Assembly: GCA_030617765.1 (NCBI GenBank)
Contig: JAUWUU010000002.1
Location: 1-39,669, forward strand
Source of the DNA: Flavobacteriia bacterium
GTDB lineage: Bacteria > Bacteroidota > Bacteroidia > Flavobacteriales > Flavobacteriaceae
Direction: 5' to 3'
Length of the DNA: 39,669 nt
The notes under the pieces: generated by a model
Seen by the model: the letters and a program-made list of their open reading frames with translations, nothing else
The model's database searches: none
Told to the model about the DNA's origin: nothing
Program-made: the position numbers and the translations under genes
Part shown: positions 8,499 to 24,293 of the stretch, in pieces
Layout: each line of letters opens with the position of its first letter
Position numbering within the stretch: the stretch's first letter is position 1

Positions 8499-11400
8499 TT
8501 ACATTCCTCTAAATAATTCTAAACGTTCCCATTGAGAATCAACTTGTTCTTGAGCTTCTTCTAACAAACCTTCAGCAGCTTTAGGATGATCTTTAGCTAC
8601 TCTAGTAAAGCGAGCTTCGCTGTACATAAATTCTTTTAAAGGAGCAGATGGAGCTTTAGAGTCCAATCTAAATTTCTTACCCTTTGGTTTCATTGGGTCA
8701 AATCTAAATAACGGCCAATAACCTGTTTCCACAGCTTTTACTTGGTGTGCTGCACCATCTCCCATATCGTAACCATGTTCAATACAATGAGAATAAGCAA
8801 CAATTAGTGAAGGACCATCATAAGCTTGCGCTTCTTGGATAGCTTTTAGAGATTGCAGATCTTTAGCGCCTGATGCTATTTGAGCAACATATACATTACC
8901 GTAAGATACTGCTTGTAAAGCTAAACTTTTCTTAGGAGTTCTCTTACCAGCAATAGAAAACTTAGCACTTGCCCCGAGTGGAGTAGCTTTAGAAGTTTGT
9001 CCACCTGTATTTGAATATACTTCTGTATCCATTACCAGAATATTGATATTTTCTCCTGATGCAAGAACATGATCAACTCCACCAAAACCAATATCATATG
9101 CCCAACCGTCACCACCTAGGATCCATACATATTTTTTACGTAAGTATTCAACTAACTGATTTAATTTTTTAGCATCCTCATTGTTGTCAATGATTGATAA
9201 AGTTTCTTTCAGTTTGTCTAAATCGGCAAATTTTTGTTCTTTTTGGGTTTCATTTTCTTCAGGATTCTCCAAAATAGCATTTACCAATTCAGAACCTACT
9301 AATAATTCTAGCGATTTTAAAAGGTCTACTGCAATTTCTTGTTTTTTCGTTAGACCTAATTTCATACCTAATCCGAATTCAGCATTGTCTTCAAATAGAG
9401 AATTTGCCCAAGCTGGACCTCTACCAAACTCATTCTTCTTGTAAGGTGTTGTTGGTAAATTACCTCCATAAATTGATGAACAACCAGTTGCATTGGCAAT
9501 TAAGATGCTATCTCCATACAACTGCGTTAACAATTTGATATAAGGAGTTTCACCACAACCCGGACAAGCTCCTGAGAATTCAAATAATGGTTCTAAGAAT
9601 TGGGAACCTTTTACATTGGTTATTGCCAATTCTTTTCTGTCATAATTTGATAATTCAGTAAAGTAATCCCAATTTTCATTTTCAACAACATCAACTTCAA
9701 GTTTTTTATGCATATTAATAGCTTTTAATCCTTCAATTTCTTTGCTTTCAGCAGGACAAACAGCAACACATAAATCACACCCGGTACAATCTTCAGGTGA
9801 TACTTGTAAAATATAAACATCATTTTCTTTAAATGGACGGCCTTTAGCACTAACAGTTTTTAATGTTAAAGGAGAATCTTTTAATTCGTCTTTAGGAACT
9901 ACTTTTGCTCTAATAGCAGCATGAGGACAAACAGCAACACATTTATTACATTGGGTACAAAGATTTTCATCATCCCATATAGGAATATAATCTGCAATAC
10001 CAGCTTTTTCATATTGAGTTGTTCCTGTTGGGAAAGTTCCGTCAACTGGGAATGCACTTACAGGTAACTCATCACCTTTACCAGCTAATATTTTTTCTAA
10101 TACATCAGTAACAAATCCTTTAGGAGCATTGACCATAGCAGGTTGAAGAGTTCTTTGACTAGTAACCTGTTTTGGATAATCTACTTTTTGTAAATTTTCT
10201 AATGATTTATCTACTGCATTAAAGTTCATTTGTACAACCTTATCGCCTTTATGTGAGTAAGATTTTACAATAGCATCTTTTATTTTTTGAATTGCTTCAT
10301 CTTTTGGTAAAATACCTGAAATTGCAAAGAAGCATGTTTGTAGTACGGTATTTGTTCTTTTACCAAGATTTGCTTGATCAGCAACTTTAGTAGCATCAAC
10401 TACATAGAAATTAGCTTCTTTTTCAATAATACCTCTTTGAAATGCTTTAGGTAATTTATCCCAAATCTCATCTTTAGAATATGGTGAGTTTAATAAGAAA
10501 GTACCACCTTCTTTTAAATTGTCAACCATATCATAACTTTCAATAAAATTGAATTGATGACTTGCAATAAAATCAGCTTTATTGATCAAATAAGATGAAT
10601 ATATATGTTCTGGACCAAATCGCAAGTGAGAAATTGTTTGTGCACCTGCTTTTTTAGAATCGTAAACAAAATATCCTTGAACATAATTATCGGTGGTTTC
10701 TCCAATAATTTTGATAGAGTTTTTGTTTGCACCTACAGTACCATCAGAACCTAATCCGTAGAACATACAGTTAATGGTAGAGCGTTTAACAGAAAAATCA
10801 TGATCGACGTCTAGACTAGTGTGAGTTACGTCATCATTGATACCAACAGTAAAATGATTTTTAGGTTTGTCTTTTGATAATTCATCGTAGATACCTTTTA
10901 CCATTTGAGGTGTAAATTCTTTAGATGATAAACCGTAACGACCACCAACAATTGTAGGAATTTCTTTACCGCTTTCAACAAATGCACTTAATACATCCAT
11001 ATAAAGAGGTTCGCCAATACTTCCTGGTTCTTTAGTTCTGTCTAAAACTGCAATTTTTTTAACAGTTTTTGGTAAATTATCAATAAAGTCTTTTGCAGAG
11101 AACGGACGGTATAAGCGTACAAATAATGCACCAACTTTTTCGCCATCAGCAACCATTTTTTCAAGGGTTTCTCTAACAGCACCTTCACCAGAGCCCATAA
11201 TAATACTCACTCTTTCTGCTTCAGGATGACCTATATAATAGAACAAACTGTATTTACGACCTGTAAGTTCATAAAATTCATCCATAACATCTTGAACGAT
11301 ACCAGGAACTTTATCATAAAATCCATTAGCCGCTTCACGAGCCTGGAAGAATACATCAGGATTTTGAGATGTTCCTCTAAGAACAGGATTGTCAGGATCT

Positions 11401-12029
11401 AAAGAATGTTTTTTGTGTTCCATAATCTTATCTTCCGGCATCATCTTTTTGATAACTTCATCAGAAATCGCATCGATCTTAGAAATTTCATGAGAAGTCC
11501 TAAATCCGTCAAAGATATTCAAGAAAGGAATTCTTGATTTTAAAGTTGCTACTTGAGTAATCAAAGCAAAATCATATGCTTCTTGAACACTTCCGCCAAA
11601 TAACATGGCAAAACCGGTTTGTCTTGCTGACATCACATCACTGTGGTCACCAAAAATTGATAAAGCATGTGTTGCAACAGTTCTAGCGGCAACATGAATT
11701 ACAGATGGTAATAATTCACCAGCAATTTTAAACATATTTGGGATCATTAATAACAATCCTTGAGATGCTGTAAATGTTGTTGTTAAAGCACCGGTTTGTA
11801 AAGCGCCATGAACAGCACCTGATGCTCCACCTTCACTTTGTAATTCAATTATTCGAGGTACATTACCCCAAACATTTTTTTCTCCTTTTGAGCTGTACAA
11901 GTCAACATGTTCACCCATAGGTGATGCAGGAGTGATAGGGTAGATGGCACAAACTTCATTTGTTTTATGTGCAATGCGTGCTACTGCTTCATTTGCATCA
12001 CAAATTAGTTTCTGAGATTTTTTTTCCAT
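8499..12029 (-). CDS. nifJ: Pyruvate:ferredoxin (flavodoxin) oxidoreductase, single-chain
   Basis: A 1176-residue homodimer-type PFOR, the full family length. It converts pyruvate and CoA to acetyl-CoA and CO2 with reduction of ferredoxin in the cytoplasm. Domains in order: the N-terminal pyrimidine-binding domain with YPITPASPMGEH near residue 27; the gamma-like domain in the middle; a ferredoxin-like domain with CTQCNKCVAVCP (around residue 690) and CTGCDLCVAVCP (around 745) for two [4Fe-4S] clusters; CPGCGETP (around 820), whose cysteines help ligate the proximal cluster; and the TPP domain with GGDGWAYDIGFGG (around 973) and NTGGQTSKATP (around 1005). No gap or frameshift is seen. It is monocistronic, with a terminator behind it and, in front, a -7 box plus an FNR-like palindrome shared in architecture with the korA and nuoA promoters. 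Ferredoxin is encoded immediately upstream. Confidence 0.97.
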   Translation of the reverse strand: MEKKSQKLICDANEAVARIAHKTNEVCAIYPITPASPMGEHVDLYSSKGEKNVWGNVPRIIELQSEGGASGAVHGALQTGALTTTFTASQGLLLMIPNMFKIAGELLPSVIHVAARTVATHALSIFGDHSDVMSARQTGFAMLFGGSVQEAYDFALITQVATLKSRIPFLNIFDGFRTSHEISKIDAISDEVIKKMMPEDKIMEHKKHSLDPDNPVLRGTSQNPDVFFQAREAANGFYDKVPGIVQDVMDEFYELTGRKYSLFYYIGHPEAERVSIIMGSGEGAVRETLEKMVADGEKVGALFVRLYRPFSAKDFIDNLPKTVKKIAVLDRTKEPGSIGEPLYMDVLSAFVESGKEIPTIVGGRYGLSSKEFTPQMVKGIYDELSKDKPKNHFTVGINDDVTHTSLDVDHDFSVKRSTINCMFYGLGSDGTVGANKNSIKIIGETTDNYVQGYFVYDSKKAGAQTISHLRFGPEHIYSSYLINKADFIASHQFNFIESYDMVDNLKEGGTFLLNSPYSKDEIWDKLPKAFQRGIIEKEANFYVVDATKVADQANLGKRTNTVLQTCFFAISGILPKDEAIQKIKDAIVKSYSHKGDKVVQMNFNAVDKSLENLQKVDYPKQVTSQRTLQPAMVNAPKGFVTDVLEKILAGKGDELPVSAFPVDGTFPTGTTQYEKAGIADYIPIWDDENLCTQCNKCVAVCPHAAIRAKVVPKDELKDSPLTLKTVSAKGRPFKENDVYILQVSPEDCTGCDLCVAVCPAESKEIEGLKAINMHKKLEVDVVENENWDYFTELSNYDRKELAITNVKGSQFLEPLFEFSGACPGCGETPYIKLLTQLYGDSILIANATGCSSIYGGNLPTTPYKKNEFGRGPAWANSLFEDNAEFGLGMKLGLTKKQEIAVDLLKSLELLVGSELVNAILENPEENETQKEQKFADLDKLKETLSIIDNNEDAKKLNQLVEYLRKKYVWILGGDGWAYDIGFGGVDHVLASGENINILVMDTEVYSNTGGQTSKATPLGASAKFSIAGKRTPKKSLALQAVSYGNVYVAQIASGAKDLQSLKAIQEAQAYDGPSLIVAYSHCIEHGYDMGDGAAHQVKAVETGYWPLFRFDPMKPKGKKFRLDSKAPSAPLKEFMYSEARFTRVAKDHPKAAEGLLEEAQEQVDSQWERLELFRGM

Positions 12030-12123: not shown

Positions 12124-12131
12124 CAAAATTA
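12124..12131 (-). promoter_or_regulatory. Putative -7 box of the PFOR promoter
   Basis: The minus strand reads TAATTTTG, matching TAnnTTTG. The predicted transcript has a leader of about 90 bases. There is no TTG -33 box. Instead, a palindrome at 12154-12167 is centred 33 bp upstream of the box centre, as expected of an activator-dependent promoter. Confidence 0.55.
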
Positions 12132-12153
12132 TGACGAAAACAACATTAAAAAA

Positions 12154-12167
12154 ATGATATAAATCAT
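12154..12167 (-). promoter_or_regulatory. FNR-like operator upstream of PFOR
   Basis: The palindrome ATGAT-ATAA-ATCAT contains the TGAT-N4-ATCA core used by FNR-class members of the Crp/Fnr family. Its centre (12160.5) is 33 bp from the centre of the PFOR -7 box (12127.5), about 40 bp before the predicted transcription start, the class II activator position. The same spacing recurs before korA and nuoA. Which regulator binds is not known. Confidence 0.6.
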
Positions 12168-12194
12168 TTAGTAAGAAAAATAAAATATTTAAAC

Positions 12195-12222
12195 AAAAAA
12201 AGACTGCTATTTTCAAGCAGCC
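12195..12222 (-). terminator. Intrinsic terminator after the ferredoxin gene
   Basis: On the minus strand GGCTGCT-(N7)-AGCAGTC forms a 7-bp stem with one G-U pair, followed by a seven-residue U-tract (plus-strand A-run 12195-12201). It separates the ferredoxin gene from the PFOR promoter, so the two minus-strand genes are independent transcripts. Confidence 0.85.
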
Positions 12223-12272
12223 TTTATATGATTAAGTGATAGCTTAAGAACTAAGACAATTAAATGAATAAA

Positions 12273-12626
12273 TTATTCACCGTGTATCCATGTTTTTTTC
12301 GCCAATAATTGCTCTTCAGTTTCTTGATGATTATCATCAGGAATACAGCAATCAACTGGGCAAACTGAAGCGCATTGAGGTTCGTCATGGAAACCTTTAC
12401 ACTCAGTACATTTGTCAGTTACGATAAAATAAAATTCATCGCTTAAAGCTTCGTTTTGCTCATCAGCATCAACCTCTTCACCATTACTAGGTAAAGTAAT
12501 TGTACCGCTTAAAGAAGTTTCGTCAGCATACGCCCATTCACTATCTGGTTCGTATATTGCGTTATTAGGACATTCAGCAACACATGCGTCGCAGTTTATA
12601 CATTCATCAGTTATTATAATAGCCAT
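12273..12626 (-). CDS. 2[4Fe-4S] ferredoxin, Alvin-like with acidic insert
   Basis: A 117-residue soluble electron carrier. Cluster motif one is C9-x2-C12-x2-C15-x3-C19-P. Motif two is C73-x2-C76-x8-C85-x3-C89-P, where the eight-residue spacer is the hallmark of Allochromatium-type (Alvin/YfhL) ferredoxins. Between the clusters lies an unusually long acidic stretch of about 50 residues (around 22-72, rich in D and E), and the tail is charged (ETEEQLLAKK). Two further cysteines follow motif two (C93, C94). Its position between PFOR and korAB makes it a likely acceptor for one or both enzymes and a likely donor to the NADH-module-free complex I. It is monocistronic, with its own -7 box (12658-12665) and terminator. 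The FNR-like palindrome of its neighbours is not visible at its promoter. Confidence 0.92.
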   Translation of the reverse strand: MAIIITDECINCDACVAECPNNAIYEPDSEWAYADETSLSGTITLPSNGEEVDADEQNEALSDEFYFIVTDKCTECKGFHDEPQCASVCPVDCCIPDDNHQETEEQLLAKKTWIHGE

Positions 12627-12657
12627 AATTTATATATTTTTATTACGATTTAGACAG

Positions 12658-12665
12658 CAAATTTA
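12658..12665 (-). promoter_or_regulatory. Putative -7 box for the ferredoxin gene
   Basis: The minus strand reads TAAATTTG, matching TAnnTTTG, 31-38 bases before the ferredoxin start. No palindrome is found 33 bp upstream and no standard -33 TTG, in contrast to the neighbouring PFOR and korA promoters. Confidence 0.45.
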
Positions 12666-12770
12666 AATAAATAAATTTCAATTAGAATACTGTAAAAGAA
12701 ATTTAGAATCATTATAAATAAGGTAATTTTCTAATATTAAAAAGTAACAAAAATCACAGATAGCGGATAT

Positions 12771-12784
12771 ATGATAAAAATCAT
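12771..12784 (+). promoter_or_regulatory. FNR-like operator upstream of korA
   Basis: The palindrome ATGAT-AAAA-ATCAT has the TGAT-N4-ATCA core. Its centre (12777.5) is exactly 33 bp from the centre of the korA -7 box (12810.5), the same geometry as at PFOR and nuoA. The arrangement suggests class II activation by a Crp/Fnr-family protein. Confidence 0.62.
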
Positions 12785-12806
12785 GCAATGGGTGAAATGT
12801 CCTAAA

Positions 12807-12814
12807 TATATTTG
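12807..12814 (+). promoter_or_regulatory. Putative -7 box of the korAB promoter
   Basis: TATATTTG matches TAnnTTTG and predicts a leader of about 55 bases before the korA ATG. There is no -33 TTG; the FNR-like palindrome takes its place upstream. Confidence 0.55.
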
Positions 12815-12875
12815 ATCCCTAAATTTTTCTACTTAGTAGAAAAACATTATTTTTACGAAATTTTAAAAACTTAAA

Positions 12876-14744
12876 ATGACACTAGATAAAACAAAAACTA
12901 CTGCTAAGAAAAAAGTTGAGCAAGTAAATGCGGTAGTTATCCGGTTTGTAGGTGATTCTGGAGATGGAATGCAGCTTACTGGTACACAATTTACAGATAC
13001 ATCTGCCATGTTTGGTAATGATGTCGCAACGTTTCCTAATTATCCTTCTGAAATTAGGGCACCTCAAGGAAGTTTATACGGAGTTTCCGGTTTTCAGGTA
13101 CATATAGGTAGTGTTGAAATTAGCACACCTGGAGATGACCTTGATCTATTGGTTGCCATGAATCCTGCAGGTTTAAAAACAAATTTAAAAGCGGTTAAAG
13201 CCGGTCATACAATTATTGTTGATACAGATTCTTTTACTAAAAAAAACCTACAAAAGGCTGAGTATGAAACAAATCCATTAGAAGATGGCAGTTTAGAGAA
13301 TTATAGGGTTATTGAAGTAGCAATGACTAGTTTAACAAGAGAAGCTTTAAAAGGTCTTGGATTAGACAATAAGAGTATTGTACGAAGTAAAAATATGTTT
13401 GCTTTGGGTATGGTTTACTGGATGTATGGTAGAGATATGAAACATACATTAGATTTCTTTGAAAAGAAATTTAAATTTAAACCTATCATAGCTGAAGCAA
13501 ATTCTAAAGTGATCAAAACAGGGTATTTTTTCGCTGAAACACTTGAATTGATCCCAAATTCTTATTCAATAGCACCTTCTACAATGCCAAAAGGTACTTA
13601 TAGAATTGTTAATGGAAATACTGCAACAGCATGGGGCTTTCTCGCTGCAGCTGAAAAATCTGGTTTAGAATTGTATTTGGGTTCTTACCCTATTACACCA
13701 GCTACAGATATTTTACACGAATTGGTAAAACACAAGCATTTTGGCGTTAAAGCATTTCAGGCTGAAGATGAAATTGCCGGTATTACTTCAACTATTGGGG
13801 CGGCATTTGCAGGTGATCTAGCGATTACTACAACTTCAGGGCCAGGATTGGCTTTAAAAGGAGAAGCGATTGGTTTGGCAATGATGACAGAATTACCAAT
13901 TGTAGTTGTAAATGTACAACGTGGAGGTCCTTCAACCGGATTACCAACCAGAACAGAGCAATCTGATTTGCTACAGGCAATGTATGGAAGAAACGGTGAA
14001 AGCCCTGTAATAGTTATTGCAGCAAGTTCACCGGCTGATTGTTTTGATTATGCTTTTGAAGCTTCTAAATTAGCATTAGAACATATGACTCCTGTTATTT
14101 TATTAACCGATGGATATATTGCTAATGGTTCTGAACCATGGAAAATAAAATCTATCAAAGATATGCCAGATATTAAACCAAATATCATTACTAATGATTC
14201 TGAAGGATATGGTCCATTTGATAGAGATAATGATTCTTTAGCGCGAAATTGGGCAATACCGGGTACTCCAGGATTAGAACATCGTATTGGTGGTTTAGAA
14301 AAAAATGAATTTACAGGAAATGTTTCTCATGATCCATTAAACCATGAGTCAATGACAAATATTAGAGCAGAAAAGGTAAAACGCGTTGAAAATTATATTC
14401 CCGATTTAACACCTGAATATGCTGAAGAAGGTGATTTACTTGTTGTAGGATGGGGAGGAACATATGGTAGTTTACATTCAGCAGTTAGAGATATGAGTAA
14501 AGATGGTTATAAAATTGGACATGCTCACTTCCATTATATTAATCCTATGTCAAAAAACACAGCAGATGTATTTTCAAGATTTAAAAAGATCATAGTTTGC
14601 GAATTGAACAAAGGGCAATTATCATTTGTGTTAAAAGGTAAGTTTAATCAGTATGATTTCTTACAATACAATAAGGTGCAAGGTTTACCATTTTCGGTAA
14701 TCGATTTAAAAGCAAAATTTAAAACACTAATAAAAGAAGATTAA
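12876..14744 (+). CDS. korA: 2-oxoacid (2-oxoglutarate):ferredoxin oxidoreductase, fused gamma-alpha subunit
   Basis: A 622-residue subunit that joins a gamma domain (about residues 18-200, starting with the glycine-rich VIRFVGDSGDGMQLTG) to an alpha domain (from about 230, with YLGSYPITPATDILHEL near 264-280 and the TTTSGPGLALKGEAIGLA segment). This gamma-alpha fusion paired with a separate beta subunit is the KorAB/OorAB layout. The complex decarboxylates a 2-oxoacid with CoA and reduces ferredoxin. 2-Oxoglutarate, giving succinyl-CoA in the TCA cycle, is the most likely substrate, because PFOR already covers pyruvate next door, but substrate is an inference. korB follows one base after the stop codon, so the two are translationally linked. 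The promoter carries an FNR-like palindrome. Confidence 0.92.
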   Translation: MTLDKTKTTAKKKVEQVNAVVIRFVGDSGDGMQLTGTQFTDTSAMFGNDVATFPNYPSEIRAPQGSLYGVSGFQVHIGSVEISTPGDDLDLLVAMNPAGLKTNLKAVKAGHTIIVDTDSFTKKNLQKAEYETNPLEDGSLENYRVIEVAMTSLTREALKGLGLDNKSIVRSKNMFALGMVYWMYGRDMKHTLDFFEKKFKFKPIIAEANSKVIKTGYFFAETLELIPNSYSIAPSTMPKGTYRIVNGNTATAWGFLAAAEKSGLELYLGSYPITPATDILHELVKHKHFGVKAFQAEDEIAGITSTIGAAFAGDLAITTTSGPGLALKGEAIGLAMMTELPIVVVNVQRGGPSTGLPTRTEQSDLLQAMYGRNGESPVIVIAASSPADCFDYAFEASKLALEHMTPVILLTDGYIANGSEPWKIKSIKDMPDIKPNIITNDSEGYGPFDRDNDSLARNWAIPGTPGLEHRIGGLEKNEFTGNVSHDPLNHESMTNIRAEKVKRVENYIPDLTPEYAEEGDLLVVGWGGTYGSLHSAVRDMSKDGYKIGHAHFHYINPMSKNTADVFSRFKKIIVCELNKGQLSFVLKGKFNQYDFLQYNKVQGLPFSVIDLKAKFKTLIKED

Positions 14745-14745
14745 A

Positions 14746-15759
14746 ATGGAAGATATAGCAGTAAAACAATATACATTCAAGGATTTTCAAAGTGATCAGG
14801 AGGTAAGATGGTGTCCGGGATGTGATGATTATGTAATTTTAAGATCTATGTTAAAAGCACTTCCTGAAATGGAGGTTAAAAAAGAAGATGTTGTATTTAT
14901 TTCTGGTATTGGATGTTCTTCTCGTTTTCCTTATTATGTAGATTCCTATGGTATGCATGGTATTCACGGTAGAGCAGCAGCAATAGCTAGTGGTGTTAAA
15001 TTAGCAAATCCAAATTTAAGTGTTTGGGTGGCTACAGGTGATGGAGATGCAATGGCTATTGGAGGAAACCACTTTATTCACGTATTGCGGCGTAACTTAG
15101 ATTTAAATATAGTTTTATTTAATAACGAAATATACGGATTGACCAAAGGTCAATTCTCACCTACGTCAGTATTGGGACAAAAAACTAAATCATCACCATA
15201 TGGTAATACGCAACCACCATTTCAACCTGGTGAATTAGCAATTGGAGCCCGTGCTAGATTTTTTGCTAGAATTGGAGGTAATACTCCAAAGGAAATGACT
15301 AAGCTATTTATTGATGCAGAAAAATTCAAAGGAACTTCTTTAATAGAGGTTTTACAAAATTGTGTAATCTTTAATGATGGTTGTTTTACAAATTATACTG
15401 ATAAAGCAGTAAAAGACGAACAACAATTACACGTTGAGCATGGAGAACCAATGATTTTTGGTAAAAACAAAGATAAGGGTCTTATTTTAGATGGATTGAC
15501 ATTAAAAATTGTAACAATTGGTGAAGATAATATAGAAGAAAAAGATCTTTTAGTTCACGATGCAAAATGTGAAAATGAAATCATGCACCATATGTTGATT
15601 AATTTAAGATATCCTTTGGTTACTGGAATTATAAGGAGTGTTGAAGAACCAACCCTTGAAGAAAGAGAAGCTGAACTTACTGAACAAGTAAAATCTAACT
15701 CTAATTTTTCAAAAGTGGATGATTTATTTTTCTCTGGAGAAACCTACGAGGTCAAATAA
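14746..15759 (+). CDS. korB: 2-oxoacid (2-oxoglutarate):ferredoxin oxidoreductase, beta subunit
   Basis: A 337-residue TPP and [4Fe-4S] subunit. WCPGCDDYVI at residues 22-31 gives C23 and C26, and GIGCSSR gives C57; these are the usual cluster ligands along with a later Cys (near 207, in LQNCVIF). The TPP motif begins ATGDGDAMAIGGNHF (about 96-110) and ends LFNNEIYGLTKGQ (about 124-136), with SPTS following, all standard for KorB. No ferredoxin domain is fused, so electrons leave to a separate ferredoxin such as the one encoded upstream on the other strand. It is co-transcribed with korA. A GC-containing hairpin follows the stop and separates it from nuoA. Confidence 0.93.
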   Translation: MEDIAVKQYTFKDFQSDQEVRWCPGCDDYVILRSMLKALPEMEVKKEDVVFISGIGCSSRFPYYVDSYGMHGIHGRAAAIASGVKLANPNLSVWVATGDGDAMAIGGNHFIHVLRRNLDLNIVLFNNEIYGLTKGQFSPTSVLGQKTKSSPYGNTQPPFQPGELAIGARARFFARIGGNTPKEMTKLFIDAEKFKGTSLIEVLQNCVIFNDGCFTNYTDKAVKDEQQLHVEHGEPMIFGKNKDKGLILDGLTLKIVTIGEDNIEEKDLLVHDAKCENEIMHHMLINLRYPLVTGIIRSVEEPTLEEREAELTEQVKSNSNFSKVDDLFFSGETYEVK

Positions 15760-15772
15760 AAAAATAATTTCA

Positions 15773-15805
15773 AAAGGATGACATTAGTCATCCTTTATCC
15801 TTTTA
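15773..15805 (+). terminator. Hairpin after korB, probable terminator (also contains the nuo operator)
   Basis: A perfect 10-bp stem (left arm AAAGGATGAC, 15773-15782) with loop ATTA and right arm ending in TTT at 15796 starts 14 bases past the korB stop. The following sequence is T-rich but broken (TTTATCCTTTT), so termination may be partial. Its core is at the same time the FNR-like palindrome of the nuo promoter. Confidence 0.6.
15778..15791 (+). promoter_or_regulatory. FNR-like operator upstream of nuoA
   Basis: ATGAC-ATTA-GTCAT has the TGAY-N4-RTCA core. Its centre (15784.5) is exactly 33 bp from the centre of the nuoA -7 box (15817.5), matching the PFOR and korA promoters to the base. 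It is embedded in the korB hairpin, so pattern alone cannot tell whether it serves as operator, terminator or both; the conserved spacing favours a regulatory role. Confidence 0.55.
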
Positions 15806-15813
15806 ATTCAAAA

Positions 15814-15821
15814 TATTTTTG
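15814..15821 (+). promoter_or_regulatory. Putative -7 box of the nuo operon
   Basis: TATTTTTG matches TAnnTTTG, 25 bases before the nuoA ATG. No -33 TTG is present; an FNR-like palindrome lies upstream at the activator position. Confidence 0.5.
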
Positions 15822-15846: not shown

Positions 15847-16197
15847 ATGGGCTACGAAGCAATTTTAGTATTATTATTAGCAGGAGTTTTTTTGATTGTT
15901 TTAGCAAATTTCTTATCCAATTTACTTTCTCATAAGTCAGATAATCCTGCAAAAAGAGAACCTTACGAATGCGGTATTGAAACTATAGGTCCAACATGGG
16001 TACAGTTTAAAGTTGGGTATTATCTTTTTGCAATTTTATTTTTAATATTTGATGTAGAAGTTGCATTCTTAATACCATGGGCAGTAGTTTATAAAGAAAT
16101 TGGAACAGTTGCTTTGGTAGAAATAATTATATTTTTATTTATACTTGGTTTGGGGTTAGCATATGCATGGAAAAAAAGAGCATTAAAATGGGAGTAG
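15847..16197 (+). CDS. nuoA: Complex I subunit A (NuoA)
   Basis: A 116-residue inner-membrane subunit with three hydrophobic segments (about residues 4-24, 57-78 and 85-107). [24 protein letters not shown] in the loop after the first segment is the NuoA/ND3 signature with its conserved Cys. [17 protein letters not shown] carries the conserved acidic residues of the second helix. It forms part of the membrane arm at the quinone site. It is the first gene of the operon; its end overlaps the nuoB start by ten bases. Confidence 0.95.
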
Positions 16198-16784
16198 ATA
16201 AAAGAAGTTTTTTAAAACAAATAGAACCAGATGGGTTAAAGCAAGTGGTTCCAAATGATTTTCCGGGTAAAGTAATACCAGGAGGGAATGGAGGAAATAT
16301 TGTGGTTACAACTTTAGATAATGTAATAAACTGGGGTCGTTCAAATTCATTATGGCCTTTGTATTTCGGAACAAGTTGTTGTGCGATTGAAATGATGCAA
16401 ACAGGTGCGCCCAGACATGACTTTTCTCGATTTGGATTTGAAGTAGCACGACCTTCAGCACGTCAAGCTGATTTGATCATAATTGCCGGAACAATTGTAA
16501 ATAAAATGGCGCCGGTATTGAGAAGATTATATGATCAAATGGCTGAACCAAAATATGTTATTGCTATGGGAGCTTGTGCCATTTCAGGAGGGCCATTTTT
16601 TTATAATTCATATTCTGTTGTAAAAGGAGCTGATCATATAATACCGGTTGATGTTTATATTCCGGGATGTCCTCCACGACCTGAAGCATTATTAGAAGGG
16701 ATGATCATGTTGCAAAAAAAGATCAAAACAGAAAATATGACTAAAAAAGTAAATCCTATTGATGGATTTGATGAAGGAAAATAA
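16188..16784 (+). CDS. nuoB: Complex I subunit B (NuoB), cluster N2
   Basis: A 198-residue peripheral-arm subunit that carries the terminal [4Fe-4S] cluster N2 and hands electrons to quinone. The four ligands are visible: [10 protein letters not shown] (C64, C65), MGACAISGG (C130) and [10 protein letters not shown] (C161), with HDFSRFG and [12 protein letters not shown] between. I start at 16188 ([10 protein letters not shown]), which overlaps the end of nuoA by ten bases; an in-frame ATG at 16167 would add seven residues and a 31-bp overlap and is less likely. All N2 ligands being present argues for a redox-active complex. Confidence 0.95.
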
Positions 16785-16810
16785 TAGTTTGTTATATAAA
16801 ATCAAGTAAA

Positions 16811-17272
16811 ATGAAAAATGAAGATTTACAAAATATTATAAATGGCTTTGGTAAAAATTTGGAATTTACTACAGAAGAATCTGAATTTTTAAATGTTATT
16901 GTTCCTAAAGAACAACTTCATGAAGTTTGTGAACAATTGAAAACAAATCCAGATTTAAAGTTTGATTATTTATATTGTTTAACAGGAATGGATTGGGGTA
17001 GTGATCTTGGTGTTATTTATCATTTAGAATCAACTGAACTCAAACATTTAATTGTTGTAAAAGTTAAAACTGATGATAGAGAAAACCCAACATTGGATTC
17101 GGTTTGTGATATATGGAGAACTGCTGAATTCCATGAAATGGAGGTTTATGATTTTTTCGGTATAAAATTCAATAATCATCCAAATTTAAAACGCCTTTTC
17201 TTAACTCCGGATTGGGATGGATGGCCTTTGAGGAAAGATTATGTAGATGAAGCAAATATGATTATTAAATAA
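16811..17272 (+). CDS. nuoC: Complex I subunit C (NuoC)
   Basis: A 153-residue soluble subunit of the peripheral arm (30-kDa family). The conserved second half is present: the stretch from about residue 99 reading VCDIWRTAEFHEMEVYDFFGIKF, followed by HPNLKRLFLTPDW and GWPLRKDY near the C-terminus. It helps form the quinone-reaction module with NuoB and NuoD. nuoC and nuoD are separate genes here (8-bp gap), unlike the fused nuoCD of some other Bacteroidota. Confidence 0.93.
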   Translation: MKNEDLQNIINGFGKNLEFTTEESEFLNVIVPKEQLHEVCEQLKTNPDLKFDYLYCLTGMDWGSDLGVIYHLESTELKHLIVVKVKTDDRENPTLDSVCDIWRTAEFHEMEVYDFFGIKFNNHPNLKRLFLTPDWDGWPLRKDYVDEANMIIK

Positions 17273-17280
17273 GTATTTCC

Positions 17281-18402
17281 ATGGTTGAAAAAGAGATAGA
17301 AAACAAAATGAAAACGGAAGAATATTTCGTTAATATGGGTCCTCAACACCCGGCTGCGCATGGAGTGTTACGATTATTATTAACAATTGATGGTGAAATA
17401 ATAAAAAATGTTGATCCTGATCTGGGATATATTCATCGTTCAATCGAAAAAATGTGCGAACGTGATAGTTACCAACAAATAGTACACCTTACTGATAGGA
17501 TGGATTATTTATCATCGCATATTAATAATGAAGCCGTATGTTTGGCTGTTGAAAAAGGACTTGATATAGAAGTTTCTGATAGGGTTAAAGTTATTAGAAC
17601 CATTGTGAGCGAATTAACTCGTTTGGCCTCTCATCAATTATGGTGGGGTGTAATAGGGATGGATCTTGGCGCTTTAACTACTTATTTTTATGCTTTTAGA
17701 GATCGTGAATATATTAATGATATTTTTGAGGAAACCTGTGGCGCAAGATTGACCATGAATTATAATATACCAGGAGGTTTGATGTTCGACATTCACCCAA
17801 ATTTTGTAAATAGGGTGAAAGAATTTTTAGTGCATTTTAAAACAAAATTACCTGAATATGATCGTTTGTTAACAGGAAATGTAATATTTCAAAAACGAAC
17901 AAAAGGTGTAGGCGTTTTAACCAAAGAAGATGCAATATCATATGGGGCTACTGGTCCAGTTGGAAGAGGTTCAGGTTTTGCATGTGATGTTAGAAAAACA
18001 CATCCTTACAGTGCTTATGATAGAGTTGAGTTTAAAGAGGCTTTATTTACTGAAGGAGATTCTTTGGCAAGATATAAAGTGAGGATAATGGAAATGTGGG
18101 AATCGATGTCGATCATTGATCAATTGATTGATAATATTCCTGAGGGAGATATTAAAACACCAACCAAAGCAGTAATAAAATTACCCAAAGGTGAATTTTA
18201 TCAAAGAGTTGAAGCTGCAAGAGGTGAATTGGGTGTTTATATCAACAGTACCGGAACTAAAAATCCGTATAGAGTAAAATTCCGTTCGTCTGGATTTTCA
18301 AATTTATCGGTTTTAAACCATATAACTAAGGGTGCGAAAATAGCGGATTTGGTTGCTACAATGGCATCATTTGACTTTGTAATTCCTGATATTGATCGTT
18401 AA
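17281..18402 (+). CDS. nuoD: Complex I subunit D (NuoD), 49-kDa homologue
   Basis: A 373-residue subunit that lines the quinone cavity with NuoB. NMGPQHPAAHGVLRLLL, near residue 18, contains the quinone-site His loop (HPAAHG). GYIHRSIEKMCE, DRMDYLSSH and the C-terminal SFDFVIPDIDR are family standards. The protein is slightly shorter than average at the N-terminus, which is common. A start at the internal ATG 17308 (MKTEEYF) is possible and would drop nine residues that precede the conserved part. The next gene is nuoH, 20 bases on, where most NADH-linked operons would carry nuoE, nuoF and nuoG. Confidence 0.94.
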   Translation: MVEKEIENKMKTEEYFVNMGPQHPAAHGVLRLLLTIDGEIIKNVDPDLGYIHRSIEKMCERDSYQQIVHLTDRMDYLSSHINNEAVCLAVEKGLDIEVSDRVKVIRTIVSELTRLASHQLWWGVIGMDLGALTTYFYAFRDREYINDIFEETCGARLTMNYNIPGGLMFDIHPNFVNRVKEFLVHFKTKLPEYDRLLTGNVIFQKRTKGVGVLTKEDAISYGATGPVGRGSGFACDVRKTHPYSAYDRVEFKEALFTEGDSLARYKVRIMEMWESMSIIDQLIDNIPEGDIKTPTKAVIKLPKGEFYQRVEAARGELGVYINSTGTKNPYRVKFRSSGFSNLSVLNHITKGAKIADLVATMASFDFVIPDIDR

Positions 18403-18422
18403 TAATAGTATAAGATTTTTTA

Positions 18423-19490
18423 ATGATGAACATACCATTAAACATAACAAAAACAATACATGATTGGCTTTTTTCAATCATGCCTGAAGGAGTAGCAACT
18501 GTTACTGAATGGGTTATAGTTGCAGCAGCTTATTTAGCATTATTTGCAGTTGCAGGATTGTATTTAGTACTTCTAGAACGAAAAGTTGCAGCATGGTTTC
18601 AATTGAGGCTTGGCCCGAATAGGGTAGGACCCTGGGGTATTTTTCAAACCATGGCAGATGCTTTGAAGTTAGTTTCAAAAGAATTAACAAGTAACGCAAA
18701 TATTGATAAATTTTTATACAATTTAGCGCCGTATTTTGTTATACTTTCTTCTTTGATTGCTATTGGTGTATTTCCTTTTTCAAGACAATTTCAAGCCTTA
18801 GATATTAATATTGGAATATTTTTCCTATTTGCAGTTTCATCTATTGGTGTGATTGGAATTCTATTAGCGGGATGGTCCAGTAATAATAAATTTGCGATGA
18901 TTGGTGCAATGCGAAGTGGTTTACAAACCATTAGTTATGAGTTATCAGTTGGTTTATCAATGTTAACCATGGTATTATTAACTGGTTCTTTACAATTATC
19001 AGAAATAATTGAAGTACAGCGTACAGGTGGATGGTTGATTTTACAAGGTCATATTCCTGCTATTATAGCATTTATGATCTTTATGATTGCCGGAACAGCC
19101 GAAACCAACAGAGCACCTTTTGATCTTGTAGAAGCAGAATCAGAATTAGGAGCAGGTTTTCACACCGAATATTCGGGAATGAAATTTGCCTATTTCTTTT
19201 TAGCTGAATTTATCAATATGTTTATTATAGCTTCTATTGCAGTTGTATTATTTTTTGGAGGCTGGTTATCACCTTTTGGAATAACTGATGATATTACCTG
19301 GTTTCCTGAAACAATTTGGTTTGTAATAAAAGTATTGGGTATCATATTTTTAATGATGTGGTTTAGATGGACGTTTCCGCGATTAAGAGTTGATCAATTG
19401 TTAACCCTAGAATGGAAATATCTATTACCAATAAATTTAGTGAATTTAGTTTTAATGGCAATTATAATTTGGTTGAATTGGACTATTTAA
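18423..19490 (+). CDS. nuoH: Complex I subunit H (NuoH)
   Basis: A 355-residue polytopic membrane subunit with about eight helices that joins the peripheral and membrane arms and forms the entrance to the quinone chamber. Key stretches: LLERKVAAWFQLRLGPNRVGPWG (from about residue 50), FQTMADALKLVSKE, GTAETNRAPFDLVEAESELGAGFHTEYSGMKFA (from about 222; the conserved acidic quinone-cavity loop) and FRWTFPRLRVDQLL. Two adjacent ATGs (18423, 18426) are possible starts. All charged residues typical of the loop appear to be present. Confidence 0.96.
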   Translation: MMNIPLNITKTIHDWLFSIMPEGVATVTEWVIVAAAYLALFAVAGLYLVLLERKVAAWFQLRLGPNRVGPWGIFQTMADALKLVSKELTSNANIDKFLYNLAPYFVILSSLIAIGVFPFSRQFQALDINIGIFFLFAVSSIGVIGILLAGWSSNNKFAMIGAMRSGLQTISYELSVGLSMLTMVLLTGSLQLSEIIEVQRTGGWLILQGHIPAIIAFMIFMIAGTAETNRAPFDLVEAESELGAGFHTEYSGMKFAYFFLAEFINMFIIASIAVVLFFGGWLSPFGITDDITWFPETIWFVIKVLGIIFLMMWFRWTFPRLRVDQLLTLEWKYLLPINLVNLVLMAIIIWLNWTI

Positions 19491-19508
19491 TAAATGATTT
19501 AACAAACA

Positions 19509-19985
19509 ATGAGTTACTTTTCAGATATATATAACGGAATAAAAACCTTGCTTACCGGAATGAGTGTAACAGGAGGGTATTTTATTCGTGCCCGTAAAGG
19601 AAGTATAACACAACAATATCCTGATAATAGAGAAACATTAAAAATGTTTGATCGATTTAGAGGTGAGGTTGTGATGCCGCATAATGAGAATAATGAACAT
19701 TATTGTACAGGTTGTCAAGCGTGTGAGATTGCTTGTCCAAATGGTTCTATAGAAATAGTTTGGGATAGACAAGTTGATCCTGAAACAGGCAAGAAAAAGA
19801 AAATGATCGATAAACATATTTACCACTTGGGTATGTGTACAATGTGTAGTTTATGTGTAGAAGCTTGTCCTACTGATGCCATTGTTTGGGCTCAGAATTA
19901 TGAGAATTCTGTATATGACAGAAAATATTTAACAAAAGTATTGAACCAACCCGGTTCAAAAGTAAAAGCAGGAATTGAAGATTAA
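19509..19985 (+). CDS. nuoI: Complex I subunit I (NuoI), 2[4Fe-4S]
   Basis: A 158-residue peripheral-arm subunit with two ferredoxin-type motifs: C66-x2-C69-x2-C72-x3-C76-P and C110-x2-C113-x2-C116-x3-C120-P, ligating clusters N6a and N6b. YFIRARKGSITQQYPD in the N-terminal part is the family lead-in. In complexes that lack NuoEFG, this subunit is the probable docking point for reduced ferredoxin. There are no unusual extra Cys ligands or fused domains. It is followed closely by nuoJ. Confidence 0.95.
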   Translation: MSYFSDIYNGIKTLLTGMSVTGGYFIRARKGSITQQYPDNRETLKMFDRFRGEVVMPHNENNEHYCTGCQACEIACPNGSIEIVWDRQVDPETGKKKKMIDKHIYHLGMCTMCSLCVEACPTDAIVWAQNYENSVYDRKYLTKVLNQPGSKVKAGIED

Positions 19986-19989
19986 TATT

Positions 19990-20496
19990 ATGGAAACAAT
20001 TTTATTTTATATTTTATCTGCTTTGATTGTAGTCTTTTCGATTGCATCTGTATCAAGCCGTAAGATTTTAAGAGCAGTTACTTATTTGTTATTTGTATTG
20101 ATAGCAATTTCCGGTATCTACTTTTTAGTAGATTACAGTTTCTTAGGAGCAGTACAATTAACAGTTTATGGTGGTGGAGTAATCGTTTTGATTATATTTT
20201 CGGTATTACTCGTACATCATATTGAATTAGAGTTAGAAGTAACACCTATAAAGAGGAAGATAATTGCAGGATTGATTAGTGTAGTCGGTTTGGGTATTAC
20301 ACTTTGGGCAATTTACACTTTTCCATTTACAAATGCCACAAATTATAAAAGCATTGAAGTTGCAGATATTGGTAGAAAATTACTCGGTTATGGCGATGGT
20401 GGATTTATTCTGCCGTTTGAGGTAATTAGTGTGTTGTTATTAGCTGTTATGGTTGGAGCAATAGTTATTGCAAAAGGAAAAAAATTAAATGAATAA
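19990..20496 (+). CDS. nuoJ: Complex I subunit J (NuoJ)
   Basis: A 168-residue membrane subunit with five hydrophobic segments. The first residues METILFYILSALIVVFSIASVSSRKILRA and the third-helix stretch VQLTVYGGGVIVLIIFSVLLV are typical of NuoJ/ND6, the latter including the pi-bulge Tyr-Gly motif. The start is the ATG at 19990, four bases past the nuoI stop. A TTG at 19975 lies in frame but would overlap nuoI and add five residues of no family resemblance. Confidence 0.93.
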   Translation: METILFYILSALIVVFSIASVSSRKILRAVTYLLFVLIAISGIYFLVDYSFLGAVQLTVYGGGVIVLIIFSVLLVHHIELELEVTPIKRKIIAGLISVVGLGITLWAIYTFPFTNATNYKSIEVADIGRKLLGYGDGGFILPFEVISVLLLAVMVGAIVIAKGKKLNE

Positions 20497-20506
20497 TTAG
20501 ATTAAA

Positions 20507-20824
20507 ATGATTGAAGGTATAAGTATTTACGAAATTTTAACACTTTCAAGTATAGTGTTTTTTGTAGGGGTTTATGGGTTTTTTACCAGAGAAAATTTGA
20601 TAACGGTATTGATGTCAATTGAACTTATTTTAAATGCATCTGCTTTAAATTTTGTGATTATTAACACCTATTTGTATCCGGATTTTTTACAAGGTGCCGT
20701 TTTTTCAATTTTTATAATCGCTATGGCAGCTGCTGAAACCGCTTTGGCTATTGCAATTATTATTAATTTATACAAATTGGTAGCATCTGTAGAAGTAAAA
20801 GATACAGAAAAACTGAAATATTAA
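20507..20824 (+). CDS. nuoK: Complex I subunit K (NuoK)
   Basis: A 105-residue membrane subunit with three helices, the standard NuoK/ND4L size. LITVLMSIELILNASALNFV (about residues 29-48) carries the conserved intramembrane Glu, and the third-helix stretch AMAAAETALAIAIIINLYK (about 72-90) carries the second one. It takes part in proton translocation next to NuoJ and NuoH. The gap to nuoJ is ten bases and to nuoL forty. Confidence 0.94.
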   Translation: MIEGISIYEILTLSSIVFFVGVYGFFTRENLITVLMSIELILNASALNFVIINTYLYPDFLQGAVFSIFIIAMAAAETALAIAIIINLYKLVASVEVKDTEKLKY

Positions 20825-20864
20825 TAGAGATTTAATAGAAGGATAAGAATTTAAATAACAAAAA

Positions 20865-22781
20865 ATGGATTTTAGCTATACCATATTAATTCCACTGATT
20901 CCCTTAGCACTTTTTGTGATCTTAGGTATATTCAGTAAAAAGATACCTGCCTCAATTTCAGGATGGATGGGATCAATAGGATTGGGCGTCACTTTTGTTT
21001 TGTCCTATTACGCAGCCTATCAATATTATTTGAATGGAAAAGTAAATGGTGTTTATCAACCATTTATTTATAAATATAATTGGATGAATTTTACAGATAA
21101 GCTCCATATCGATATGGGAGTTCTAATCGATCCAATTTCAGTTATGATGTTAGTTGTAGTTTCAACTATTTCATTTATGGTGCATTTATACAGTAGGGGA
21201 TATATGAAAGGTGATGATGGTTATACGCGATTTTTTGCCTACTTAGCATTATTTAGTTTTTCTATGTTTGGGCTGGTTTTGGCAACTAATCTCTTCCAAA
21301 TTTATATTTTTTGGGAATTGGTTGGTGCTTCATCATTCTTATTGATTGGATATTATTATACAAAACCATCTGCAGTTTCCGCAGCAAAAAAAGCATTTAT
21401 TGTAACGAGATTTGCTGATTTTGGTTTCTTGGTGGGAATCCTGATCATTGGATATTATACAGGTACCTGGGATTTTCAAGAATTGAATAATCCTGAAGGT
21501 TCAGTAATAACCAATTGGGCTTCTACATCTTTTATGGGATTGTCAGTACTTACCTGGGCATTGATACTCATTTTTATGGGTGGTGCAGGTAAATCGGCAA
21601 TGTTACCATTTCATATCTGGTTACCAGATGCTATGGAGGGTCCAACCCCTGTTTCGGCATTGATTCACGCGGCAACTATGGTTGTAGCGGGTGTGTATTT
21701 AGTGGCCAGACTATTCCCGATGTATTATTTTATAGAAGACGGATTTGCGCTTCAGGTAGTAGCGTACGTCGGTGCTATTTCATCATTGTTTGCTGCAATA
21801 ATTGCCTTAACACAAAATGATATTAAAAGAGTGTTGGCTTTTTCAACAATGTCGCAAATTGGCTATATGATGTTAGCATTAGGAGTGTCCGGATACCACG
21901 GCCATGATGGTTTAGGATTTATGGCTTCTATGTTCCACTTGTTTACGCATGCGATGTTTAAAGGGCTTCTCTTCTTAGCAGCAGGTTCAGTTATTCATGC
22001 AATTCACAGTAATTATTTGCAGGATATGGGTGGTTTAAGAAAGTATATGCCCATTACACATATTACATTTTTAATTGCAGCTTTGTCAATTTCAGGTGTA
22101 CCATTTTTTGCAGGATTCTTTAGTAAAGATGAAATATTAACAGCTGCTTATGAAAACAATATATTAATTTATATCAGCAGTGTTTTTGTTGCTGGATTGA
22201 CGGCTTTTTATATGTTTAGACTGTATTTTGGAATATTTTGGGGAAAAGATAAAGAGTATGAACATACACCTCATGAATCACCAATGTCTATGACAATACC
22301 AATGATGTTTTTAGCATTTATGAGTATTGCCGGCGGTTATATACATTTTAGTAAATATATATCTCCAGATCATATGCCCTTTGAAGCGCATTTAAATTAT
22401 TATTTAGCTGCTATTGCTTCAACAGTTGGATTGATAGGAATTGTTTTGGCTTTTATTTTTTATAAAAAAGAAAATAATTTATCAGAAAGGTTTTCACATG
22501 CATTTGGAATATTTTATAAATGGACCTATAACAAATTTTATTTTGATGAGATCTATTTATTTGTTACCAAAAAAATAATTTTCGGATTGGTTGCAAAACC
22601 ATCTGCCTGGTTTGATAAAAATGTTGTTGATGCATCGATGATTGGTATTGGAAATGTTACTGAATCATTTTCTTATAAGATCAAAGGAATGCAATCCGGT
22701 AAATTTCAGGATTATGCAATGGGCTTTATTAGTGGAGGTGTTGTGATTGCCATTGTAGTATTTTATTTATGGATAAATTAA
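20865..22781 (+). CDS. nuoL: Complex I subunit L (NuoL), antiporter-like proton channel
   Basis: A 638-residue membrane subunit, the largest of the three Mrp-like pumps. FQIYIFWELVGASSFLLIGYYY carries the conserved helix-5 Glu; GKSAMLPFHIWLPDAMEGPTPVSALIHAATMV (from about residue 239) is the family's key helix-7/8 region with the pump Lys. The C-terminal extension (about 520-638) corresponds to the long lateral helix and its last transmembrane anchor (VVIAIVVFYLWIN). It is a normal length with no truncation. Confidence 0.96.
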   Translation: MDFSYTILIPLIPLALFVILGIFSKKIPASISGWMGSIGLGVTFVLSYYAAYQYYLNGKVNGVYQPFIYKYNWMNFTDKLHIDMGVLIDPISVMMLVVVSTISFMVHLYSRGYMKGDDGYTRFFAYLALFSFSMFGLVLATNLFQIYIFWELVGASSFLLIGYYYTKPSAVSAAKKAFIVTRFADFGFLVGILIIGYYTGTWDFQELNNPEGSVITNWASTSFMGLSVLTWALILIFMGGAGKSAMLPFHIWLPDAMEGPTPVSALIHAATMVVAGVYLVARLFPMYYFIEDGFALQVVAYVGAISSLFAAIIALTQNDIKRVLAFSTMSQIGYMMLALGVSGYHGHDGLGFMASMFHLFTHAMFKGLLFLAAGSVIHAIHSNYLQDMGGLRKYMPITHITFLIAALSISGVPFFAGFFSKDEILTAAYENNILIYISSVFVAGLTAFYMFRLYFGIFWGKDKEYEHTPHESPMSMTIPMMFLAFMSIAGGYIHFSKYISPDHMPFEAHLNYYLAAIASTVGLIGIVLAFIFYKKENNLSERFSHAFGIFYKWTYNKFYFDEIYLFVTKKIIFGLVAKPSAWFDKNVVDASMIGIGNVTESFSYKIKGMQSGKFQDYAMGFISGGVVIAIVVFYLWIN

Positions 22782-22790
22782 TTTAAGGAT

Positions 22791-24281: not shown

Positions 24282-24293
24282 AAAATTATTAAA

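Follow-up and report, generated by a model that had tools for sequence, protein, structure and literature searches.

The stretch of DNA analyzed here, hereafter the window, comprises 39,669 nucleotides of contig JAUWUU010000002.1 (positions 1 to 39,669, forward strand) in the GenBank assembly GCA_030617765.1 of a Flavobacteriia bacterium in the family Flavobacteriaceae. It carries genes for a pyruvate:ferredoxin (flavodoxin) oxidoreductase (PFOR), a ferredoxin, the two subunits of a korAB-like 2-oxoacid:ferredoxin oxidoreductase and a nuo operon (Table 1). The names of PFOR, the korA-like and korB-like subunits, the ferredoxin and the nuo subunits are putative. From nuoD the open reading frames (ORFs) of the window pass on to nuoH, and nuoE, nuoF and nuoG are missing at this place, as expected of a complex I that is fed by ferredoxin or another donor. 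Three short palindromes lie in the promoter regions of PFOR, korAB and nuo. An earlier note, made from the sequence of the window, had read them as operators of an FNR-class Crp/Fnr regulator, and these palindromes are the subject of this work.

Table 1. Promoter elements and genes around the three palindromes (start sites are predicted from the position of the -7 box)
Feature	Position in the window	Strand	Remarks
PFOR, 1176 amino acids (aa)	8499..12029	-	ORF
-7 box of the PFOR promoter, TAATTTTG	12124..12131	-	33.0 bp from the palindrome centre; predicted start ~12119
Palindrome (putative operator) of the PFOR (nifJ-like) promoter, ATGATTTATATCAT on the minus strand	12154..12167	-	exact pattern match
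Ferredoxin, 117 aa, between PFOR and korA	12273..12626	-	ORF
Palindrome (putative operator) of the korAB promoter, ATGATAAAAATCAT	12771..12784	+	exact pattern match
-7 box of the korAB promoter, TATATTTG	12807..12814	+	33.0 bp from the palindrome; predicted start ~12819
korA-like 2-oxoacid:ferredoxin oxidoreductase alpha subunit, 622 aa	12876..14744	+	ORF; relatives
korB-like beta subunit, 337 aa	14746..15759	+	ORF
Hairpin around the nuo palindrome, 10-bp arms, 4-nt loop	15773..15796	+	fold -13.8 kcal/mol
Palindrome (putative operator) of the nuo promoter, ATGACATTAGTCAT	15778..15791	+	exact pattern match
-7 box of the nuo promoter, TATTTTTG	15814..15821	+	33.0 bp from the palindrome; predicted start ~15826
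nuoABCD-HIJKLMN operon	15847..25724	+	ORFs

Exact matches to ATGAYN4RTCAT occur four times in the window, at 12154, 12771, 15778 and 36263. The mean in 100 shuffled sequences was 0.32 and none of the shuffles reached four. The match at 36263 lies within a coding frame. Each of the three intergenic palindromes is accompanied by a TAnnTTTG box with six of six matches, and the distance from centre to centre is exactly 33.0 bp. All coordinates and distances of these elements in the earlier note were correct on recomputation. It had also stated that a -33 TTG is missing, and by eye no TTG was seen at about -35 to -30 in the PFOR, korAB and nuo promoters. Its statement that the other genes it named with such boxes lack a palindrome holds as well, as the window contains no further exact matches. 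On the ferredoxin strand (12273..12626), no box with at least five of six matches was found 33.0 bp from the korA palindrome.

FNR and CRP act as class II activators from position -41.5. Mapped transcription starts in Flavobacterium psychrophilum place the TAnnTTTG box at -12 to -5 (PMC9723704), and the boxes of the three window promoters were placed at the same position for the start sites in Table 1. Because the box centre is then at -8.5 and the palindrome centre is 33.0 bp upstream, the operator would be centred at -41.5. The three window promoters therefore have a site at about -41.5 and no good -35/-33 element. The class II position proposed from the window agrees with the published flavobacterial starts. 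The same paper reports strong up-regulation of the cbb3 oxidase under oxygen limitation in F. psychrophilum; 'crp' is absent from its main text and 'fnr' does not occur in the portion searched (PMC9723704).

Chance has to be considered, since an A+T-rich genome supplies many short palindromes and TAnnTTTG boxes, and boxes with five of six matches are indeed found at many distances from palindromes. The genome that contains the window (2.2 Mb in 166 contigs, 90% complete; hereafter the own genome) was scanned for TGAYN4RTCA combined with a six-of-six box, all 31 spacings between 18 and 48 bp being allowed. Nineteen of the 48 palindrome/box pairs were at exactly 33.0 bp and every other spacing had at most 3 pairs (binomial P about 2e-16 for the excess at 33.0); the reversed pattern gave 3 pairs. 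With 25 relatives the scan covered 26 genomes. The matches listed for the relatives belong to 8 of them, which represent different genera (G003 is covered in part); 55 of these 150 pairs were at 33.0 and no other spacing had more than 8. In 100 genomes of the family (own genome included), 742 pairs were found at 33.0 compared to 13 at 29.0 as a fixed-gap control, and a hand count of the reversed pattern at 33.0 gave 12. In a phylum sample of 148 genomes, 20 genomes of the same class outside the order had 69 pairs at 33.0 and 4 reversed ones, and 111 genomes of other classes had 39 and 5, respectively. The 33.0-bp grammar is thus present throughout the class and only weakly so outside it. The sites are also nearly absent from genomes without a close relative of the candidate regulator described below. 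The shuffled sequences, the distribution of spacings and the control at 29.0 rule out a chance origin of the pattern, and we give it practically no weight, though any one single site could still be due to chance. In two genomes a single palindrome has 33.0-bp boxes on both strands (G017, C2:256994-257067; G032, C1:3596686-3596759), an arrangement in which a single dimer might act on a divergent pair of promoters. One palindrome in the own genome (C104:6360) has a box at 33.0 on one side and at 41.0 on the other.

The earlier note had made its reading depend on conservation of the palindromes in orthologous promoters. Out of 246 KorA relatives found, we examined the loci of the best 80, each with at most 10 kb of flanking sequence and mostly labelled Flavobacteriaceae or genera belonging there, and counted promoters with at least 200 bp of upstream sequence. 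On this basis 6 of 80 promoters were dropped for korA, 38 of 80 for PFOR (no PFOR start or short upstream sequence) and 16 of 80 for nuoA. The exact core was found in 68 of 74 korA promoters, all 68 with a box of at least five of six matches at 33.0 bp (six of six in 62). The 23-nt spacer between operator and box had 63 forms among these 68 promoters, with a mean pairwise identity of 0.50, and the operators had 18 different N4 centres; it was concluded that the length of the korA spacer is kept and its sequence is not. For PFOR the exact core was present in 34 of 42 promoters, and in 28 of the 42 it lay 33.0 bp from a box with five or six matches; only 5 of these 28 boxes were six of six, the usual form ending in TTTA. 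For nuoA the exact core was found in 38 of 64 promoters, 29 at 33.0 and 8 at 32.0 only. The palindromes are therefore conserved at 33.0 in all three orthologous promoters (korA 68/74, PFOR 28/42, nuoA 29/64), least so before nuo. The outer base of the motif varies among A, G and C across the orthologous operators: 66 of the 68 korA operators have G or A there, and 18 of the 28 PFOR operators have C. T was seen in 1 of 68 korA, 0 of 28 PFOR and 0 of 29 nuoA operators. korA itself is uncommon: with 1e-100 as the highest E accepted, 14 of the 100 family genomes have it. Thirteen of the 15 korA loci in these 14 genomes have the operator at 33.0; the other two are in G082, which has none, and G048, with too little upstream sequence. 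One contig labelled Piscirickettsiaceae (L112) carries a flavobacterial-type korA with the operator, and its label is probably a binning or naming error.

nuo is the weakest of the three cases because its palindrome also lies within a terminator-like hairpin. This hairpin begins 14 bp past the korB stop codon, and a T-rich stretch comes after it. Several relatives, including some Lutibacter, have a long T run at this place. In some Lutibacter-like relatives with the hairpin and long T run, the box is at 32 instead of 33. The palindrome at 15778 could then be only an intrinsic terminator of korAB, with a coincidental 33-bp distance to the nuo box. The length of the hairpin arms, the fold energy, the T-rich sequence after it and the conservation of the nuo site, the weakest of the three, agree with this explanation. 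However, in 17 of the 29 nuoA operators at 33.0 the arms are extended by at most 4 bp and there is no long hairpin, and core and spacing persist in these promoters. Spacing among the 38 exact-core nuoA promoters is likewise concentrated at 33.0, with the 8 at 32.0 only as the next group, and operator and terminator functions are compatible. We consider the pure-terminator explanation unlikely and retain it only as a partial rival: the nuo hairpin may terminate korAB transcripts, and the nuo palindrome appears to be an operator that some lineages also use as a terminator.

The three promoters had been described as a small regulon. The regulon is supported and its small size is not, as 19 sites with six-of-six boxes were found in the 2.2-Mb genome. 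The excess at 33.0 is clear genome-wide and energy genes lie downstream, preceded by 9 of the 19 sites in a generous count of our own. Besides the three window operons, the six-of-six targets include two pairs of cytochrome c and COX1-fold genes, NO-reductase-like (Pfam Cytochrom_C and COX1 in the one pair tested), which we take to be NorC/NorB, and a NuoEF-like fused subunit (below the NCBIfam cut-offs) that adjoins a NiFe hydrogenase. They also include pyruvate phosphate dikinase, succinate dehydrogenase cytochrome b, the Na+/H+ antiporter subunit MnhE, a rhodanese and a porin whose domains are of the FadL type and OmpA; the remaining genes have other or unknown roles. No ATG-started frame of at least 45 aa was found within 400 bp of the site at C165:5843. 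Among the retrieved stretches of the own genome, at least 7 further sites have five-of-six boxes at 33.0. Their targets are ccoS-ccoNO (cbb3 oxidase), the small subunit of a NiFe hydrogenase, an indolepyruvate-type ferredoxin oxidoreductase (below its cut-off), a VorB-type oxidoreductase cluster, a fasciclin and an aminotransferase-like gene. The five-of-six site at C107 falls within a coding frame and probably arose by chance. hcp was not recognized among the downstream genes, in which no search aimed at hcp was made.

Crp/Fnr genes, for which the earlier note proposed a search, are present in the genome. Five proteins have a PF00027 domain, and one of these is FNR-like. Its gene (C138:1596-2282; G000) is found between cbb3 oxidase genes. 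The protein scores 78.5 bits for PF00027 (cNMP_binding) and 54.8 bits for PF13545 (HTH_Crp_2), both above the cut-off, and thus combines the cNMP_binding fold and the Crp-type winged helix-turn-helix (HTH) that define the CRP/FNR superfamily. Among solved structures its best relative is a Crp/Fnr-family protein, followed by chains named 'FNR type regulator'. In E. coli FNR the cluster ligands are Cys20, 23, 29 and 122, and the recognition helix presents Glu209, Ser212 and Arg213. In the alignment with an 'FNR type regulator' chain, which we presume to be from Aliivibrio, the N-terminal CxxC of the C138 protein aligns with that of FNR, and Cys107 with the last of the FNR ligands. A search with the C138 protein found matches in 88 of the 100 family genomes; matches at E up to 1e-60 (57 of 100 genomes) were defined as FNR orthologues. 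In the best 30 of the 57 orthologues, the C138 protein included, the CxxC, Cys54, Cys60 and Cys107 are kept in all 30, and in 29 an exact core of the operator lies in the region from 500 bp before to 60 bp after the start of the open frame. The recognition helix keeps Glu and Arg and has Ile in place of Ser212 (the same Ile in the 30 orthologues), and so differs from that of FNR proper. The operator TTGAT-N4-ATCAA of FNR proper was not what we found either, its inner part TGAY-N4-RTCA being our search pattern. In CRP numbering, which we assign by alignment, residue 180 is presumably Thr and residue 181 Glu. A study of HcpR links these two residues of the recognition helix to the operator bases (PMC1274295). 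By that rule, Thr180/Glu181 fits TGA without a fixed preceding G, which matches the operators seen. Another CRP/FNR protein (L021:2139-2774), with an Arg-Glu (CRP-like) recognition helix, adjoins a GTGACAACTGTCAC site at C101:9787 that is again 33.0 bp from a box; here the G preceding TGA agrees with the residue-180 rule of PMC1274295. A Flavobacteriales CRP/FNR homologue is treated as MalR-like in another study, where a MalR matrix is applied to it (PMC8510549).

The density of sites follows the presence of this protein family. It is 2.62 per Mb in the 57 genomes with an FNR orthologue, 2.32 in 27 genomes with only another relative, and 0.12 (4 sites) in the 16 genomes with no match or with E above 1e-10; 12 of these 16 have no match at all and many, not all, of the 16 are small. 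The sites are tied to the CRP/FNR family by this low density in genomes without a close relative, and the density in genomes with only other relatives indicates that the FNR orthologue is not alone. The reading of the palindromes as FNR-class Crp/Fnr operators is thus supported by conservation and by co-occurrence with CRP/FNR relatives.

From the sites, their fixed spacing, their conservation and this co-occurrence we infer binding and activation by a CRP/FNR-family member, presumably in response to low oxygen or redox state. The palindromes (VTGAY-N4-RTCAB) are very probably operators of a CRP/FNR-family activator, with PFOR, korAB and nuo in one conserved energy-metabolism regulon, class II at -41.5, and the FNR-like C138 protein as the most likely main regulator. 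A dimer centred at -41.5 on promoters with a TAnnTTTG box and no -33 element would, as a class II activator, replace the missing -33 contact. In the own genome the FNR-like protein would also regulate its own gene. It would probably sense through an iron-sulphur cluster or thiols, be active when oxygen is low, and switch on the ferredoxin-reducing enzymes and complex I together with the cbb3 oxidase, the NO-reductase-like genes and hydrogenase. Plausibly, cells short of oxygen would induce PFOR and KorAB, which reduce ferredoxin, alongside the nuoEFG-less complex I and a high-affinity terminal oxidase.

Several observations weigh against this interpretation or parts of it. No site at 33.0 was found in 14 of 42 orthologous PFOR promoters, and 26 of 64 nuoA promoters lack the exact core in addition to the 8 with spacing 32 only. 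The arms are extended by at least 5 bp in 12 of the 29 nuoA operators at 33.0. Ten of the 19 six-of-six sites in the own genome precede genes without a clear energy role. The C138 protein lacks equivalents of two E. coli FNR residues, the third ligand Cys29 and Ser212. G082 has an FNR orthologue but no korA site. Conversely, the korA operator persists at 33.0 in G007 and G031, two genomes without the FNR orthologue; they are the only two orthologue-less genomes with korA and enough upstream sequence. The FNR orthologue is therefore not required for the korA operator, and its exclusive assignment as the regulator was dropped. The operator may have two or more readers within the CRP/FNR family.

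A second candidate is a receiver-cNMP-HTH hybrid at C165:3451-4485 (L033) with HTH_Crp_2 and receiver domains. A PAS kinase gene (L033:2090-3418) directly precedes it, and the gene after it is for what we take to be a universal-stress-type protein. The same arrangement is found in G025 (PAS kinase at L162:276-1517, hybrid at L162:1544-2578). The PAS domain of the L033 kinase matches DosP and FixL chains (E 1.5e-5 to 9e-4), its best match being another multi-sensor kinase. The hybrid probably reads the same operator, as a second regulator. The window operators could even be class II sites read mainly by the hybrid, driven by the heme-PAS-like kinase. In line with this, the 27 genomes without an FNR orthologue are nearly as rich in sites as the 57 with one, the frame with the best match has 350 to 385 residues, about as many as the hybrid, in 16 of the 27 by hand count, and the two korA operators in G007 and G031 are kept.

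The sites beside the hybrid gene are, however, of a distinct tandem class, TGAYN4RTCA-N10-TGAYN4RTCA, with 22 bp between centres. Tandems were found at five places in the own genome (C165:5821, 6284 and 7733; C147:8207; C21:6185), and the three window promoters are not among them. In the three C165 tandems and the C147 tandem the inner operator is 33.0 bp from a six-of-six box; the C21 tandem has no box at 32 to 34. Among the 100 genomes, tandem pairs are found in G025 (21), the own genome (5), G047 (1) and G054 (1), and the other 96 have none. Twenty of the 21 pairs in G025 were examined for boxes in both directions (loci L162 to L176): 13 have a box of at least five of six at 33.0 from the inner operator and 7 do not. 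Three of the G025 tandems are found downstream of the hybrid gene of that genome, no more than 2.4 kb from it. Furthermore, it is the FNR-like gene and not the hybrid that is found between cbb3 oxidase genes with single operators. We regard the hybrid as a rather improbable main reader of the window operators, and the FNR-like protein stays as the preferred main regulator. A more elaborate scheme can be put forward tentatively: the FNR-like protein, with its unusual conserved set of cysteines, and the fusion of receiver and CRP-type protein with its heme-PAS-like kinase might be two different flavobacterial sensors of low oxygen or redox state that converge on the -41.5 operator of -33-less Bacteroidota promoters, and in a few genera the fusion might have split off its own targets through tandems 22 bp apart (-63.5 and -41.5).

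Bacteroidota are an abundant phylum of the sea, soil and gut, and to our knowledge oxygen-dependent gene regulation in this phylum is poorly mapped. In a search of open-access literature, with most subscription papers outside its scope, we found no description of an FNR-type regulon, a class II geometry or a 33-bp grammar for Flavobacteriaceae. A fixed operator-to-box distance that can be read from sequence would make raw genomes of the family into regulon maps. The grammar also offers a direct test of activator action on -33-less Bacteroidota promoters, and the regulon would tie ferredoxin-reducing enzymes and a NuoEFG-less complex I to one switch.

The proposed system resembles the E. coli FNR regulon in the palindromic TGAT-type site with a 4-bp centre at -41.5, in the targets of anaerobic or microaerobic respiration, in a regulator with cNMP fold and Crp-type HTH, and in autoregulation. 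It differs in the outer base of the operator, which is A, G or C here and T in E. coli; in the core promoter, which is the Bacteroidota TAnnTTTG box without a -33 element; in the cysteines (CxxC, C54, C60 and C107); and in the targets, among which are ferredoxin oxidoreductases and a nuoEFG-less complex I operon. With HcpR/HcpR2 of Bacteroides and other anaerobes it shares the CRP/FNR family in Bacteroidota and the link of residues 180/181 to operator bases (PMC1274295). The common HcpR2 motif given there is GTAACnnnnGTTAC, compared to VTGAYnnnnRTCAB here, and the HcpR2 regulons of Bacteroides and Porphyromonas contain only hcp, while the targets here are broad (PMC1274295). Identity with HcpR2 was dropped on the motif: the operators studied are VTGAY-N4-RTCAB and not GTAAC-N4-GTTAC, no other motifs having been searched. 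The rhizobial Fix system, with targets that include fixNOQP (a cbb3 oxidase), is the third comparison. The FixL-FixJ-FixK and hFixL-FxkR (PMC7888657) pathways likewise combine a heme-type PAS kinase with a CRP/FNR-type output. Here, in contrast, the receiver and the CRP-type DNA-binding part are fused in one protein encoded beside the kinase, whose heme binding and role are putative.

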